32,628 nucleotides of DNA from contig JBDOLX010000012.1 in NCBI GenBank assembly GCA_039832905.1, forward strand, positions 1 through 32,628. Direction: 5' to 3'. The translations under genes were made by a program, and so were the position numbers. The DNA is from Desulfurobacteriaceae bacterium. GTDB lineage: Bacteria; Aquificota; Aquificia; Desulfurobacteriales; Desulfurobacteriaceae. The notes under the pieces are model-generated. The model had not been told where the DNA came from. It searched no databases and saw nothing but the letters and a program-made list of their open reading frames with translations. Of the stretch, positions 1-10,608 are shown one piece after another. Numbering within the stretch: the stretch's first letter is position 1; every line of letters begins with the position of its first letter.

Positions 1-1194
1 CCCAATACTTACCGTTACAGGTATGTCTTGTCCTTCGTACGTGAAAGAACTGTTTTCTACAAGTCTCCTTATTCTCTCAAAAACCTCTTTTGCAGAATGT
101 TCATCTGTTCCGTAAAGAACAAGGAGTATTTCTTCTCCTCCAAATCTTACAGCTAAATCAGTTTCCCTTATGTTCTCCTTAATTATCTCGGCTATCTTTT
201 TAAGGACGTAATCACCTGCAAGATGTCCATAAGTATCGTTGATTCTCTTAAAGTTATCTATATCAAGCATTCCAATGGCTATAGGCTTATTCTCCCTTAA
301 CGCAAGCTTAACAAGTTCTCTTAAACGCTTTAATCCAAACCTTCTGTTGAAAAGCCTTGTAAGAGGATCAATAGTAGATTCTTTTTTGAGTAACTCGTAA
401 GCATATGCGTTCCTAAAAGCCTGAGCCATAGAGTGTCTAATTCTCCTGTAAAAAAGAATTTCCAATCCTTTCATCTTTTCTGTCTTTCCTACTATAACTG
501 CTCCTTTCCAAGTTTCAGTCACAAGAGGAATGATACAGACGGATTTGAGGAACATATTTCCCGGAAACTTTACTGCAACATCATCAACGTTTAAAACTTT
601 TACCTTGTTGCTTTCTATTATTTCAGCCAATCCTTCAGGTATTATCGGATCCATATTTACAGCATGAACAAGTTCAATTTCACCCCCTTTTTGTGAAAAG
701 AAAACGGCAGATAAGACACCAAACTTATCGTACAGAAACTGATACACCTTTGAAGCTAGAACCTTACCCTCTAAAGTTTTACCAAAAATGTCGTTTATTT
801 CATTCTGGTAGTGATCCAACAATTCGTCTTGGTATATAGCGTTCAAGAAGTATAGTAGTTCTTTAGAGAATTCAGATATAAAATCCTTTCCTTTAGGTTC
901 AATTTCCACGTTTTCAAGAAGGACTTTCATATCTTCTACTTTTCCTGCTTTCTTAGCTTTTCTCAGCCTTGAAAGAAGATTTGTCAAATAGTTAAAGTAA
1001 TCTTTAAGATTTCCTTCAACGAGAACAAAATACATAAATATGGTGAGTATAAAATTCGAAAGTAAGGATATGGTAAACTCTAAGTAACCTAACTTCAAAG
1101 TAGGGTTTATGGCCTTAAGTGCTAAAGGTGTTAAGAACCCAGATATTGTTGCCATTAAAGTTATGTCCCTTAAAAGTCTTTTCTTTATTTCCAT
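1..1194 (-). CDS. Membrane-anchored diguanylate cyclase (GGDEF), 3' end outside window
   Basis: Probable diguanylate cyclase making c-di-GMP from two GTP at the inner membrane. I translated 398 codons from an ATG at 1194; the frame is open to base 1, so the C-terminus is missing. Two hydrophobic segments (about residues 11-31 and 38-60) anchor it. A middle region (about 130-260) looks GAF-like but I am not certain. The GGDEF domain starts at DPLTRLFNRR (about 276) and continues with DIDNFKRINDTYGH and the active-site loop RFGGEEI (GGEE at 352-355). RETD at 343-346, five residues before GGEE, is the classic RxxD inhibitory site, so product feedback is likely. AGAAGG lies just upstream of the ATG. 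It diverges by 24 bp from the FlhB-like gene. Domain assignment is firm; which process it controls is unknown, though flagellar neighbours hint at motility. Confidence 0.9.
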   Translation of the reverse strand, partial: MEIKKRLLRDITLMATISGFLTPLALKAINPTLKLGYLEFTISLLSNFILTIFMYFVLVEGNLKDYFNYLTNLLSRLRKAKKAGKVEDMKVLLENVEIEPKGKDFISEFSKELLYFLNAIYQDELLDHYQNEINDIFGKTLEGKVLASKVYQFLYDKFGVLSAVFFSQKGGEIELVHAVNMDPIIPEGLAEIIESNKVKVLNVDDVAVKFPGNMFLKSVCIIPLVTETWKGAVIVGKTEKMKGLEILFYRRIRHSMAQAFRNAYAYELLKKESTIDPLTRLFNRRFGLKRLRELVKLALRENKPIAIGMLDIDNFKRINDTYGHLAGDYVLKKIAEIIKENIRETDLAVRFGGEEILLVLYGTDEHSAKEVFERIRRLVENSSFTYEGQDIPVTVSIG

Positions 1195-5733: not shown

Positions 5734-7128
5734 ATGATTAAATTTGGAACGGATGGATGGAGAGGAGTAATTTCTAAGGAATTTACCTTCGATAACTTAA
5801 GGAAAGTTGCTCTAGCTCATGGAGAAGTTCTGAAAGAAGAAGGGGCAAAAAAAGTAGTTGTTGGTTATGATTTAAGGTTTCTTTCCGAAGAATACGCCAA
5901 GTTTACAGCCGAAATTTTAGCAGGATTAGGACTTGAAGTAGTTCTCTCCAAAGGCTTTTCACCAACTCCAGCAGTTTCCTTTGCTACGAAATATTTTGGA
6001 TTTGATAACGGTATAGTAATTACAGCTTCCCACAATCATGGTAGATACAACGGATATAAGGTGAAGGAGTCCTTCGGAGGAGCAGCAAGAACCTCCTTTA
6101 CAAAAAAAATAGAAGAGAAGATACCTTTAGTTGAAAATAAAGAAGTCCCGAAAGGTGATTATAAAGAAGAAGATATCAATACTCCTTATGTTGAAGGAGT
6201 AAGGAAACAGCTTGAATTATCTCTCTTTAAAGAAAGAGAACTACTAATTATTCATGATCCAATGTTTGGAGCTCAGCAGGGATTAATGAGAAGAGCCTTA
6301 GAAGGGACAAAACTCAGTGTTTGTGAAATCCACTCTTTTAGGGATCCTCTTTTTGGAGGAAAACACCCGGAACCGATAGTTGAGAAAAATATTACAGGAC
6401 TTATGGAAAAAGTTCGCTCACTGAAGGCAGACATTGGAATTGCCAACGATGGAGATGGGGATAGGGTAGGAATAGTTGATGAGAAGGGAAGGTTTGTAAA
6501 CTCTCAACTTGTTTATGCACTTTTACTTCTCCATATAGTCAGAAATAAAGGAAAAAAAGATGGAATAGTTGTGAAAACTGTTTCTACAGGTTATTTAGTG
6601 GACAGAGTTTGTAGAAAGGAAGGGCTTACCCTTGTAGAAACTCCAGTAGGTTTTAAAAACATTTCGGAAGTAGCTATGGAAAGAAAGGTTCTTTTTGGTG
6701 GCGAGGAGAGTGGAGGCTATGCCCTTATGAATTATCTCCCAGAAAGAGATGGACTACTTATGGGACTTCTACTTATAGAAAAGATGATAGCTGAAGGAAA
6801 GAAAGTTTCTGAGCTTGTAGAAGACCTCTTTAGAGAATTTGGAGCCGCTTTTTACAAGAGAGTTGACTTACCTGTTTCAGAAAGAGAAAGAGAGGCTTTG
6901 GAAAAGCTTAAAGAAAATCCTCCAGAGAAATGGAATAATTTAAAGGTAGAAAGGATTTTAACTATAGATGGTCTTAAGATTATCTTTGAAGATGACTCTT
7001 GGCTACTCTTTAGACCATCCGGTACAGAACCGGTATTTAGAGTATACGCAGAAATGCCAAGTGAAAATAGAACCTACGAACTTTTAGAATGGGGTAAGAA
7101 ACTTTTAAGTGGAGGAAAAGTTGGATAA
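5734..7128 (+). CDS. Phosphoglucomutase/phosphomannomutase family protein
   Basis: Alpha-D-phosphohexomutase of 464 residues, interconverting hexose 6- and 1-phosphates in the cytoplasm to feed nucleotide sugars. All four family loops are present in order: phosphoserine loop TASHNHGRYNG (Ser99), metal loop DGDGDR (239-244), sugar loop GGEESGG (322-328) and C-terminal phosphate loop RPSGTEP (about 430). The phosphoserine loop has HGRYNG where many relatives have PPEYNG, which prevents choosing between glucose, mannose or glucosamine preference by eye. First gene of an operon; its 3' end overlaps the KaiC-like gene. The window also holds several glycosyltransferases that would use its products. 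Confidence 0.9.
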   Translation: MIKFGTDGWRGVISKEFTFDNLRKVALAHGEVLKEEGAKKVVVGYDLRFLSEEYAKFTAEILAGLGLEVVLSKGFSPTPAVSFATKYFGFDNGIVITASHNHGRYNGYKVKESFGGAARTSFTKKIEEKIPLVENKEVPKGDYKEEDINTPYVEGVRKQLELSLFKERELLIIHDPMFGAQQGLMRRALEGTKLSVCEIHSFRDPLFGGKHPEPIVEKNITGLMEKVRSLKADIGIANDGDGDRVGIVDEKGRFVNSQLVYALLLLHIVRNKGKKDGIVVKTVSTGYLVDRVCRKEGLTLVETPVGFKNISEVAMERKVLFGGEESGGYALMNYLPERDGLLMGLLLIEKMIAEGKKVSELVEDLFREFGAAFYKRVDLPVSEREREALEKLKENPPEKWNNLKVERILTIDGLKIIFEDDSWLLFRPSGTEPVFRVYAEMPSENRTYELLEWGKKLLSGGKVG

Positions 7129-7993
7129 GCAGAAAGAGGTAATGAAAGATAACATTTACGTTCTCGGGGAAGCTATAAAGAAAGCTCCTCAGCTAAAAGG
7201 AGTTTCTACAGGTGTAAAGGGGCTCGATGACCTATTTTTCAGTGTAGAATGGGAGAATGGAAAACCTATAAAGAAACCGTTGGGGGGAATACCCGAGTAT
7301 TCAGTTGTAAACCTTACTGGAACTCCTGATACTGGAAAGAGCCTTATTGCCGAACAGTTTACGGTAAAGCAGGCATCTTTGGGACAAAAGGTGTGTTTTG
7401 TCACTGTAGAAAGTCCTGCACCGTTTGTAGCAGCAGGGCTAAGGCAAAGAGCAACGGTTATGGGAATAGAGTTTGAAAAAATAGAAGACAACATAATCCT
7501 TATAGATGCTGCAAGTAATACTAAACTTCGAGATGATATTCCAACTATGCTTGACACTTTAGCTTACGTTTACAGAACTTACCATTGTAGAAGAACTGTC
7601 ATTGACTCTATCACAGGATTGTTTGAAGCAAAGGAAATGCTAGCTAGGTCTGTTGTTAGAGCTTTTTTCAACTTTATGAAGAAATGGTATCAAACGGCTA
7701 TTTTCATATCTCAAAAAAGAAGTGGGCATGACGAGCTTTCTCCGGAAGCAGCAGGAGGTTATGCGGTAGGGCACATTGTCGACTGTACTATTGTTCTATC
7801 CAAGGAAATTCTTCTTTCTCCATCTAAAGCAAAAGCCTACAAGAAAGAGCTTGGAGATATTGTAAGACTTTTCAGAATCGATGGATGTCGCCTTTGTGGG
7901 CATGTTACAAAACTTTACTTAATGGAAATCACGGAACTTGGGTTAGTAGAGATAAAACAGCCTCTTGTAGAATATTTGAAAAGTGTGAAGTAA
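7121..7993 (+). CDS. KaiC-like RecA-family ATPase
   Basis: About 290 residues, a single RecA/KaiC-type ATPase domain. It opens with the family phrase VSTGVKGLDDLF, then Walker A GTPDTGKS (about 67-74), VCFVTVESPAPFVA, and Walker B-like RRTVIDSITGL. Near the C-terminus DGCRLCGH (CxxCxH) could bind a metal. It differs from circadian KaiC, which has two domains; KaiA and KaiB are absent here. Relatives in other phyla are signalling ATPases of unclear role. I chose TTG at 7121 because GGAGG (7111-7115) sits five bases ahead; GTG 7109 and ATG 7142 are in-frame alternatives. It overlaps the mutase gene by 8 bp and is followed by two unrecognised membrane proteins, its likeliest partners. Confidence 0.8.
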   Translation: MDKQKEVMKDNIYVLGEAIKKAPQLKGVSTGVKGLDDLFFSVEWENGKPIKKPLGGIPEYSVVNLTGTPDTGKSLIAEQFTVKQASLGQKVCFVTVESPAPFVAAGLRQRATVMGIEFEKIEDNIILIDAASNTKLRDDIPTMLDTLAYVYRTYHCRRTVIDSITGLFEAKEMLARSVVRAFFNFMKKWYQTAIFISQKRSGHDELSPEAAGGYAVGHIVDCTIVLSKEILLSPSKAKAYKKELGDIVRLFRIDGCRLCGHVTKLYLMEITELGLVEIKQPLVEYLKSVK

Positions 7994-8043
7994 ATATTAA
8001 AATTTATCTAAAAAGATTTTTGAAACAGCTTAAGGGGCTTGTT

Positions 8044-9279
8044 ATGGTAAATTTTCTCATAAGTTTATTCTCACTTCTTTTCATTATAACTACGTGTAGT
8101 AATGGTGCATCACTAGAAGATGTTTTAAATAAACTTGAGAACGACCTAAAAACAAAGAAATCAGAAACTATCATTCAAAAAGACCTAAAAACTTTGCAGG
8201 AAGTAAAGAAAACTCTCCCTGTTAACTATATTCCAGAAATCAACTACTTAATGAAAAAGGAAATAGAGAAAATTCCTGAATCGGGAATAACCAATAAAAA
8301 GAAGGAACTTTTAATTTCTTCTATTATCTATAACAGCTCCATAGGTGTCATGTTTCTTATTGTTGTTTTCACTCTAACTTTCTTCTTCCAACAGGTAAAT
8401 ACAAGACACAGAAACATATTATCAGTTTTTTCAATATTTTTATCCTCGATTTCGGTTATCTATAAACCTTTCTTTTTCTTTTTAGTAGGAACGGCTATTG
8501 TATTTAACCTTAGGCTAAGAAAGCCTGTTTTTACTATTTTTTTAATGTTGTTCTCCGTTATCTCCTTACTCTCGCAAAATATATATAATAACGCTTCGGC
8601 ATACGTTTCTTCTTATTCTACCCTTTACAAGGAAAAAATAGAAAGAGATGGTTATGTTCCTTATTACCTAATAGACAAAGTTTTCAGTGACTCTAAAAAG
8701 GAAACAGTAGAGAAGATAATTAACCAGCTAGCTGTTGGTAACTTTGAAAACATTAAAGTCTTAAAAAACATAGCTGAAAACTCTAATAATGAAGAACTGA
8801 AAATAGCTGCTTTAAATGGTCTTGGATACTTTTACTTTATGAAAGGGGACTACGAAAAAGCAGAAAAGTATTTCTTAAAAGCAAACGGACTGAGTAAAAG
8901 CCCTATTCCAGAAATAAACTTGTACTTTACTTACAGTGCAACTTTACAGGTTGACAAAGCAGCTAAGATGATGGAAAAACTAAAAAGAAATGAACAGATA
9001 GTTATACCTGATAAACCGGTTCCTCTCTTAATTCATCTGCAGCCAAGACCACTAGAAACAAAAGTGGCATGGAACACTATCATTGCCCTTTCTGTAGGAT
9101 TACTGTTGGCTTACATTCTTGTAAGCAAAATTCCTTTTGAATACGGTTTCTTCAATAGAAGCTTTAGGAAAATACCCGGTATTGGTTTTTACATAAATAA
9201 TGGAGTAGCTTTTTTCATACTAATATTCATTGTTTTCCTTGTTACTAACTATATTGTGGTAGGTAAGTTGTTATGCTAA
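8044..9279 (+). CDS. Unrecognised membrane protein with TPR-like repeats
   Basis: I do not recognise this 411-residue protein. The ATG at 8044 follows AAGGGG at a good distance; the frame is open upstream to 7885 but that part overlaps the KaiC-like gene. A hydrophobic N-terminus (1-20, with Cys18 in a poor lipobox context) looks like a signal sequence. A charged helical region (23-90) precedes membrane segments at about 95-117, 125-155 and 161-178. A soluble part includes a TPR-like repeat (about 250-285: LNGLGYFYFMKGDYEKAEKY). Two more helices lie at 342-362 and 386-406. This topology is reminiscent of BatE-like or other TPR membrane scaffolds but no family can be named. It overlaps the next gene by 7 bp. 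Confidence 0.7.
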   Translation: MVNFLISLFSLLFIITTCSNGASLEDVLNKLENDLKTKKSETIIQKDLKTLQEVKKTLPVNYIPEINYLMKKEIEKIPESGITNKKKELLISSIIYNSSIGVMFLIVVFTLTFFFQQVNTRHRNILSVFSIFLSSISVIYKPFFFFLVGTAIVFNLRLRKPVFTIFLMLFSVISLLSQNIYNNASAYVSSYSTLYKEKIERDGYVPYYLIDKVFSDSKKETVEKIINQLAVGNFENIKVLKNIAENSNNEELKIAALNGLGYFYFMKGDYEKAEKYFLKANGLSKSPIPEINLYFTYSATLQVDKAAKMMEKLKRNEQIVIPDKPVPLLIHLQPRPLETKVAWNTIIALSVGLLLAYILVSKIPFEYGFFNRSFRKIPGIGFYINNGVAFFILIFIVFLVTNYIVVGKLLC

Positions 9280-10109
9280 AGGGAAATCTAGAAAAAGTAG
9301 GAAACTTAGTAGATATTCTAAACATTTACCAGAGCAAAAAAGAACCTACAAAGCTCATCCTTAGATCCCCTTCTACAGAACTCGTACTTTGCTTAAAAGG
9401 TGGAAAAGTAGGAATCAAACCGGAAAATGGTCTATCTCCTGAAGCTACCCTTTGGAAGTTCCTAGAGGAGTGGGTTATTTTTGGCTTTTCTTTAAGTTTT
9501 GAAGCTCAAAATGCGAATGACTGTAGAATACCAACTCCTTTAACAATATTTGACTTACAAACGATAGTTGCAAATCCTTATTTAGAGAAAGTGGGGGAAA
9601 TACCAGCCCTTTTCGTTATAGAAGAAGCAGACACTTCTAAATTACCTTCTGTGCTTTCTAAATTTTTCTTTGAAAAAGAACCTTTAAGCATTAAAGACCT
9701 TTATAAACTTGATTTATCTATAACAAAACTTGTTGAACTTAGGGAAGAAGATATATTAAAAATATCCAACGTTGACAAGATAAGTATCTTGTTACCTTAT
9801 CTAACCTCTTTTGCATCTTTAGCCATAATTGCTGCATTGGTTTACTCTATTCTTCCTATTAATGATCTTACCTCCCTAACAAAAGAAAGACTTTTAGAGG
9901 GTCTTAACTGGGCTTTAAGAGAGAAAGTCTTGAGTAATGCAAATACGGCTGTTTTACCTGTTAAAGATTGCTTTGGAAACAACTTAATTTTTAAAGAAGA
10001 TAAGATCATTAGTCCTGGCTGGGACAAGAAACTTGGTAATGGAAATGATTTTTACATAGAACTTCCTAAAAACAATTACAAACCTTTCTTTGCCATACCA
10101 GTGAAGTAA
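9273..10109 (+). CDS. Single-pass protein: DUF4388-like N-terminus, GspH/FimT-like C-terminus
   Basis: A 278-residue protein of uncertain family. Residues 1-50 (GNLEKVGNLVDILNIYQSK, then LILRSPSTELVLCLKGGKV) resemble the DUF4388/PATAN fold found in bacterial signalling proteins. A single membrane helix spans about 171-194. The segment spanning helix and downstream region (SLAIIAALVYSILP, then LLEGLNWALREKVLSNANTA) reads like the helix and first part of a GspH/FimT pseudopilin, though the prepilin cleavage motif (GFTLIE type) is missing and the helix is internal. Both likenesses are by eye and moderate. The start overlaps the TPR gene's stop (ATGCTAA), so the two are probably translated together. 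aroK follows after one base. Confidence 0.65.
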   Translation: MLKGNLEKVGNLVDILNIYQSKKEPTKLILRSPSTELVLCLKGGKVGIKPENGLSPEATLWKFLEEWVIFGFSLSFEAQNANDCRIPTPLTIFDLQTIVANPYLEKVGEIPALFVIEEADTSKLPSVLSKFFFEKEPLSIKDLYKLDLSITKLVELREEDILKISNVDKISILLPYLTSFASLAIIAALVYSILPINDLTSLTKERLLEGLNWALREKVLSNANTAVLPVKDCFGNNLIFKEDKIISPGWDKKLGNGNDFYIELPKNNYKPFFAIPVK

Positions 10110-10110
10110 G

Positions 10111-10608
10111 ATGAGGATAATTTTAGTAGGCTTTATGGGAAGTGGAAAATCTACGATAGGAAAACTTTTATCAGAAAGGCTTTTCCTTCCTTTTTTAGAT
10201 CTTGACGAAGAAATCTTAAAAAGAACCGGAATGACCATTCCAACGATTTTTTCTAAGTTCGGAGAAGATACTTTTAGGGAACTGGAAAGAGAAACTTTGC
10301 TAGAACTACTATCCGCTAAGGAGTGCATAATTTCTACTGGTGGAGGAGCTCCCGTCTATAAAGACAATATGGATAAAATTAACGAAAGTGCTGTTTCTGT
10401 GTACTTAAAAGCAGAATTTGAGACGCTATGGGATAGAATTTCCAAAGACTCCAATAGGCCCTTAGTATCTCTTGGTAAAGAGAAAGTAAGAGAACTTTTT
10501 GAAAAAAGAAAACCTTTTTACGAAAAGGCTAAAATAAAGGTTAGGACGGATATTTACTCTCCATCCGAAACTGTAGATAAGATTCTTCAAGAGCTTAAAC
10601 TACTTTAA
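10111..10608 (+). CDS. aroK: Shikimate kinase
   Basis: Phosphorylates shikimate at the 3-hydroxyl with ATP, step five of the chorismate pathway. 165 residues, the usual length. Walker A GFMGSGKST (7-15) is followed by the shikimate-binding DLDEEI (Asp30, Asp32), FRELERE (about 56-62), the GGGA loop (about 78-81) and the lid arginine region SNRPL. It starts one base after the preceding stop and is the last gene of the operon. Its 3' end overlaps the convergent flippase-like gene by 9 bp. aroA, the next pathway step, lies elsewhere in this window in another operon. Confidence 0.95.
   Translation: MRIILVGFMGSGKSTIGKLLSERLFLPFLDLDEEILKRTGMTIPTIFSKFGEDTFRELERETLLELLSAKECIISTGGGAPVYKDNMDKINESAVSVYLKAEFETLWDRISKDSNRPLVSLGKEKVRELFEKRKPFYEKAKIKVRTDIYSPSETVDKILQELKLL

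Follow-up and report, generated by a model that had tools for sequence, protein, structure and literature searches.

A KaiC-like ATPase, probably part of a KaiC-HTH regulatory module, lies beside a lineage-restricted TPR-ORF3 membrane protein pair in Aquificota

Genes at the locus

The window (the whole stretch of DNA that was analyzed, 32,628 nucleotides) contains three genes between a phosphohexomutase gene and aroK. The sequence-only reading had described them as one run, and this layout is real: the genes are consecutive, and all are on the plus strand. The features referred to below are as follows.

5734 to 7128, plus strand: phosphohexomutase (PMM/PGM/GlmM-like), with Pfam PGM_PMM I to III; the upstream neighbor of KaiC in the window's family
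7142 to 7993, plus strand: KaiC-like ATPase, TIGR03878 (thermo_KaiC_2), assigned by TIGR03878, PF06745, and residue conservation in 56 members
8044 to 9279, plus strand: TPR membrane protein (ORF2), based on the ORF and its start, TPR matches, a structure model (pLDDT 89), and a positive-inside count
9273 to 10109, plus strand: ORF3, a one-pass protein according to its model, with a GspG-similar C terminus and a family-restricted distribution
10111 to 10608, plus strand: aroK, shikimate kinase (PF01202 [SKI]; E value, 3.4e-46); the constant downstream neighbor of the TPR-ORF3 pair
1 to 1194, minus strand: protein with a GGDEF diguanylate cyclase domain, truncated at the edge of the window

The best NCBIfam match of the phosphohexomutase was TIGR03990 (303.9 bits), which is below the cut-off of 439. 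The coordinates listed for the ATPase are those of an ATG start at position 7142, and a GTG at position 7109 is a possible alternative start. The start of ORF2 was placed at ~8044 and not at the mechanically called 7885, as the alignments of its relatives begin from ~8044. ORF2 and ORF3 overlap by 7 nt.

The KaiC-like ATPase

The prediction of a one-domain KaiC-like ATPase was confirmed. The protein of 294 amino acids has a single KaiC domain that matches TIGR03878 over profile positions 1 to 258 of 259 (E value, 6.6e-129; 428.8 bits, compared with a curated cut-off of 232.2) and also matches PF06745. The catalytic site is intact and comprises the Walker A motif (G60 to S67 in the numbering of the ATG form), the glutamate E90, and the Walker B residue D155. 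Residues G60, D63, T64, G65, K66, E90, D155, and S156 are invariant in 56 TIGR03878 members, and the window copy has all of them. The C-terminal CxxCxH that had been proposed for this protein was not supported as such. Among the same 56 members, C249 is conserved in 95% and C252 in 73%, while R250, G253, and H254 are conserved in 100%, so that the conserved motif is C-R-x-x-G-H. Because the second cysteine is conserved in just 73%, a zinc site or other invariant metal site at this position was rejected.

KaiC-like ATPases are proposed signaling hubs in archaea, and to our knowledge few of their partners there have been worked out. The KaiC family TIGR03878 and its neighboring regulatory domain (TIGR03879) are already named in NCBIfam, and a literature search for either family by name retrieved no relevant paper.

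The TPR membrane protein and ORF3

ORF2 had been described as a multi-pass TPR protein, in agreement with the TPR_1/TPR_2 Pfam matches found in all 16 of its relatives and with the several membrane helices of the model. The model contains an N-terminal signal-like helix, an extracytoplasmic N-domain, and membrane helices, and the TPR domain (residues ~203 to 320) is predicted to be followed by two C-terminal membrane helices. Across the family, lysine and arginine together account for 18, 5, and 31 of every 100 residues in loops 1, 2, and 3, respectively. The abundance of these residues in loops 1 and 3, their scarcity in loop 2, and the signal-like N terminus together predict a periplasmic location for the TPR domain, which would put it out of reach of a cytosolic ATPase. 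The protein matched no whole-protein family in Pfam or NCBIfam, and a PDB fold search with its model gave no match at an E value of ≤0.001, the TPR part being like ordinary TPR repeats. Short TPR-only matches in two further genomes (G024 and G041; E values, ~1e-4) were taken as generic TPR similarity.

The ORF3 model (pLDDT 86) shows a soluble N-terminal part up to residue ~168, a long membrane helix (residues ~169 to 193), and a C-terminal part, confirming the single-pass architecture with a soluble N-terminal part and a portion beyond the membrane. The N-terminal part is predicted to form a cytosolic alpha/beta domain, and the C-terminal part is predicted to be periplasmic. No family was found for ORF3 in Pfam, NCBIfam, or PHROGs. 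A PDB fold search with the model gave no match at an E value of ≤0.001, and its sequence profile matched PDB chains only at E values of 0.04 and worse.

Two more specific similarities had been suggested for ORF3. The first, a DUF4388-like part, has to be abandoned: none of the 16 ORF3 members had a Pfam match to DUF4388 (PF14332), and a profile-profile comparison of the N terminus with the real DUF4388 proteins of the phylum gave a probability of 0.3%. Genuine DUF4388 proteins exist in the phylum and in the window's own genome (G000:C30). The second, a pseudopilin-like character, holds for a short C-terminal tail and not for the whole protein. The last 30-odd residues, which have the loop motif SPGxDxxxGTxDD, were aligned by hhalign with the GspG/T2SSG pseudopilins over 32 columns with a probability of 88.6% (E value, 2.6e-6, which is the value for a single comparison), and no other family compared with this segment exceeded a probability of 0.5%. 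The T2SSG Pfam family (PF08334) had no match in the 16 ORF3 members. ORF3 lacks a short N terminus with a prepilin cleavage site directly before the helix; instead, a folded domain precedes residues 169 to 193. As its membrane helix is internal and not N-terminal, the complete protein cannot be called a pseudopilin.

KaiC and an HTH protein are coupled across Aquificota

Genomes were compared in two sets, first 61 relatives and then 136 Aquificota genomes; the window's family, which is probably Desulfurobacteriaceae, is represented by 22 genomes. KaiC is present in 57 of the 61 relatives. In other families, the next gene after it often encodes a protein of ~218 amino acids, which belongs to TIGR03879 (near_KaiC_dom, a probable regulatory domain), and archaeal members of this family give HTH-like matches. 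TIGR03879 was found above the cut-off in 116 of the 136 genomes. When only matches over the TIGR03878 and TIGR03879 cut-offs were taken into account, 106 genomes had both proteins, 8 had KaiC only, 10 had the HTH protein only, and 12 had neither (Fisher p, 8.5e-7, uncorrected for shared ancestry and genome incompleteness). The corresponding numbers for 88 good genomes were 78, 2, 4, and 4, of which the two KaiC-only and the four HTH-only genomes count against the coupling. Neither protein is present in genome G036 (a single contig, 100% complete), and both occur in its congeners, G042 and G047.

By coordinates, KaiC adjoins the HTH gene in about 42 genomes, in 40 of them within ~0.4 kb and in two more within 2 kb. 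A TnpB-type gene lies between the two in G042. The same adjacency was seen in contigs labeled Diapherotrites, Micrarchaeota, Microgenomates, Calditrichaeota, and Hydrogenothermaceae/Hydrogenothermus; misbinning may account for some of these labels. KaiC and the HTH gene are not adjacent in the window's genome and in its family. The window's genome encodes its TIGR03879 protein (G000:C19:378-662; 122 bits, compared with a cut-off of 65.1) on a contig other than that of the ATPase.

The genes around KaiC and the HTH gene differ among the other families. In several genomes of family f4 (L120, L121, L122, L124, L127, and L128), the gene after that of the HTH protein encodes a TamB-like protein of ~1,100 amino acids (Pfam TamB; E value, 1e-10 in L120), and in two f4 genomes (L053, 8867 to 9592; L061, 6425 to 7156), the gene after KaiC was recognized by eye as one for a PP2C-like phosphatase. 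The gene after the HTH gene in family f3 does not encode the same TamB-like protein but a reverse gyrase (TIGR01054; 1253.6 bits in L069). It was found beside KaiC-HTH in three f3 genomes (L069, 7180 to 12308; L051; and L068), a hint that the module may be connected with hyperthermophily.

The HTH gene adjoins pilB in the window's family

In the window's genome, the HTH gene on contig C19 is located 17 nt upstream of a gene for PilB (TIGR02538; 699.7 bits, compared with a cut-off of 675.65), and DUF190, aroD, and a cytochrome c assembly-like gene follow, the last two having been identified by eye. This PilB has an MshEN domain, a family known for c-di-GMP binding. The same order, with hemA where the contig goes on, was found in most of the window's family (L110 [G000:C19, 306 to 2656], L111 to L119, L125, and L126). 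The HTH gene adjoins pilB in the 13 family genomes checked, and this was not seen in other families. We consider this link to be the most interesting lead from the survey.

One reading of it is that the KaiC-HTH module acts on type IV pili in the window's family, with KaiC or the HTH protein controlling PilB and with ORF3 and the TPR protein serving as pilus accessories. Besides the adjacency to pilB, the resemblance of the ORF3 C terminus to the GspG pseudopilin loop points in this direction, and a precedent is known from the archaellum, in which the KaiC-like ATPase ArlH is thought to stimulate the PilB-like ArlI (PMC8978795). However, PilB-type ATPases occur in genomes that have neither KaiC nor the HTH protein (G036, G086, and G111), ruling out that such ATPases need the module; the HTH genes of other families lie beside TamB-like or reverse gyrase genes and not beside pilB; and G002 has HTH-pilB without the TPR protein and ORF3. 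The link is found in one clade only and rests on gene order, and it may therefore be an inherited arrangement. This reading is, in our opinion, improbable. A fuller version, in which KaiC-HTH would be wired to type IV pili in the window's family and govern how strongly the adjacent PilB is expressed or how active it is, as a bacterial counterpart of ArlH-ArlI, with TPR-ORF3 and its pseudopilin-like tail as an accessory to the same apparatus, appears very improbable.

Distribution and gene order of the TPR-ORF3 pair

The TPR protein and ORF3 were searched for in Aquificota genomes and, for ORF3, also in plasmids, among which it was not found. Among the genomes searched, only members of the window's family gave full matches to the two proteins, namely 20 of its 22 genomes. 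Three weak partial ORF3 matches elsewhere in the phylum were taken as chance, since their frames contain stops. Both genes are missing from G001 and G002, which are congeners of the window and which both keep KaiC. In the relatives, the two genes overlap by 7 to 19 nt, and aroK follows them immediately in each of the 16 loci that were inspected closely and in three more. Within the pair, sequence identity across the family has fallen to about 25 to 36%. As the genes overlap, stand before aroK, and are absent together from two congeners, they look like a real evolutionary unit, and the case for regarding them as a pair is strong. The unit presumably forms a membrane complex and, as far as the libraries searched show, is an undescribed lineage-restricted pair. 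In one genus (g7; L040, L045, and L048), TPR-ORF3-aroK lies beside bioD-like, flagellin, FliD, FliS, and FlaG-like genes on the opposite strand, as identified by eye.

The adjacency to aroK, which is constant even where the rest of the neighborhood becomes flagellar genes, could mean that the pair serves cell envelope or shikimate-linked physiology via aroK and not secretion or a pilus. Yet aroK is a housekeeping gene, so that adjacency alone says little, and it is not apparent what a membrane TPR protein would do in shikimate synthesis. We regard such a function as very unlikely.

The ATPase is not bound to the pair in this way. KaiC was found above the cut-off in 114 of the 136 Aquificota genomes, compared with 20 for ORF3. 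The run PMM-KaiC-(LOG)-TPR-ORF3-aroK is present on one contig in 15 of the 22 family genomes, and in 14 relatives a TIGR00725/SLOG gene (LOG) separates KaiC from the TPR gene. Among the genomes with KaiC and the pair in one run, that of the window alone has no LOG gene between them. A search for a TIGR00725/SLOG gene in the window's genome found none, which makes the direct contact of KaiC and the TPR gene, seen in this genome only, a peculiarity of it. In G008, G013, and G016, which belong to another genus, TPR-ORF3 is found with aroK, and KaiC is located elsewhere. In the congener G002, the SLOG/TIGR00725 gene downstream of KaiC is shortened, and an IS607-type element with genes for a serine recombinase and TnpB lies next to it (L032, 5028 to 7474).

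The sequence-only reading had further suggested that the ATPase could signal to or energize a membrane complex. The evolutionary unit of the two membrane proteins and its run with the ATPase in the family are supported; the part assigned to the ATPase is unsupported. A single signaling or energizing membrane complex of KaiC, the TPR protein, and ORF3 that is specific to the window's family is most unlikely, although the gaps in their common run are short or overlapping and the predicted cytosolic domain of ORF3 would be within reach of an ATPase, because KaiC is found across the phylum without the pair, is separated from it by relocation or by the LOG gene within the family, has a better partner in the TIGR03879 HTH protein, and, by the predicted topology, could not reach the TPR domain. 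An indirect functional link between the ATPase and TPR-ORF3 is possible.

Probably two systems at one locus

The explanation that we consider likely is a KaiC-HTH regulatory module next to an independent, lineage-specific TPR-ORF3 membrane pair. As the phylum-wide partner of the ATPase is encoded elsewhere, the three neighbors are probably not one machine. Family membership, the intact ATPase site, the phyletic coupling, and the adjacency of KaiC and the HTH gene in many other genomes are direct observations. The ATPase would be the KaiC half of a two-gene module that consists of a one-domain KaiC/RecA-fold ATPase (TIGR03878) and an HTH protein (TIGR03879). KaiC would assemble into an ATP-dependent ring, and the nucleotide state of the ring could, through contact with the HTH partner, control the DNA binding of the latter and thereby a set of genes. 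Separate from this module, the TPR protein and ORF3 would form a fast-evolving inner membrane pair that is restricted to the family and travels with aroK; the TPR domain may serve as the docking site for the pseudopilin-like tail of ORF3, both being predicted to be periplasmic. The retention of KaiC and TPR-ORF3 in one run in 15 family genomes speaks against this explanation, as does the separation of KaiC from the HTH gene in the family, and since the run has been kept despite the divergence of the pair, some selection for co-expression is possible.

The survey strengthens the case that the TIGR03878 ATPase and the TIGR03879 HTH protein work together, including in genomes in which their genes are apart. 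In Aquificota, a deep-branching bacterial phylum, the KaiC-HTH pair is almost universal and has occasionally been lost together. The locus also illustrates that a tidy three-gene neighborhood can mislead, the contact of KaiC and the TPR gene being confined to one genome.

Comparison with known systems

The window ATPase is like TIGR03878 proteins at full length, with a score of nearly twice the cut-off and conserved catalytic residues; it stands apart from its usual partner and otherwise differs only in sequence. The one full TIGR03879 member of the same genome belongs to a family whose name already records a position near KaiC-like proteins, whereas here the gene is on another contig and is followed by pilB instead of being preceded by KaiC. 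The gene that lies between KaiC and the TPR gene in relatives belongs to TIGR00725/SLOG cluster 4 (LDcluster4), of which the search of the window's genome detected no member. ORF3 resembles the major pseudopilin GspG/T2SSG in its C-terminal loop, over the 32 aligned columns described above, but differs in having a large cytosolic domain, as predicted, before the helix and no prepilin-type N terminus.

Cyanobacterial KaiC proteins share the RecA/KaiC fold with the window ATPase and are its best sequence relatives among solved structures. However, they have two tandem domains, compared with one in the window ATPase, which reached 35 bits with circ_KaiC (TIGR02655; cut-off, 546). With ArlH (NF052589), the window ATPase scored 30.4 bits, below the cut-off of 215, and the protein encoded beside PilB here is the HTH partner and not KaiC itself. 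The ArlH-ArlI pair is comparable in that a KaiC-like ATPase is proposed to regulate a PilB family ATPase (PMC8978795).
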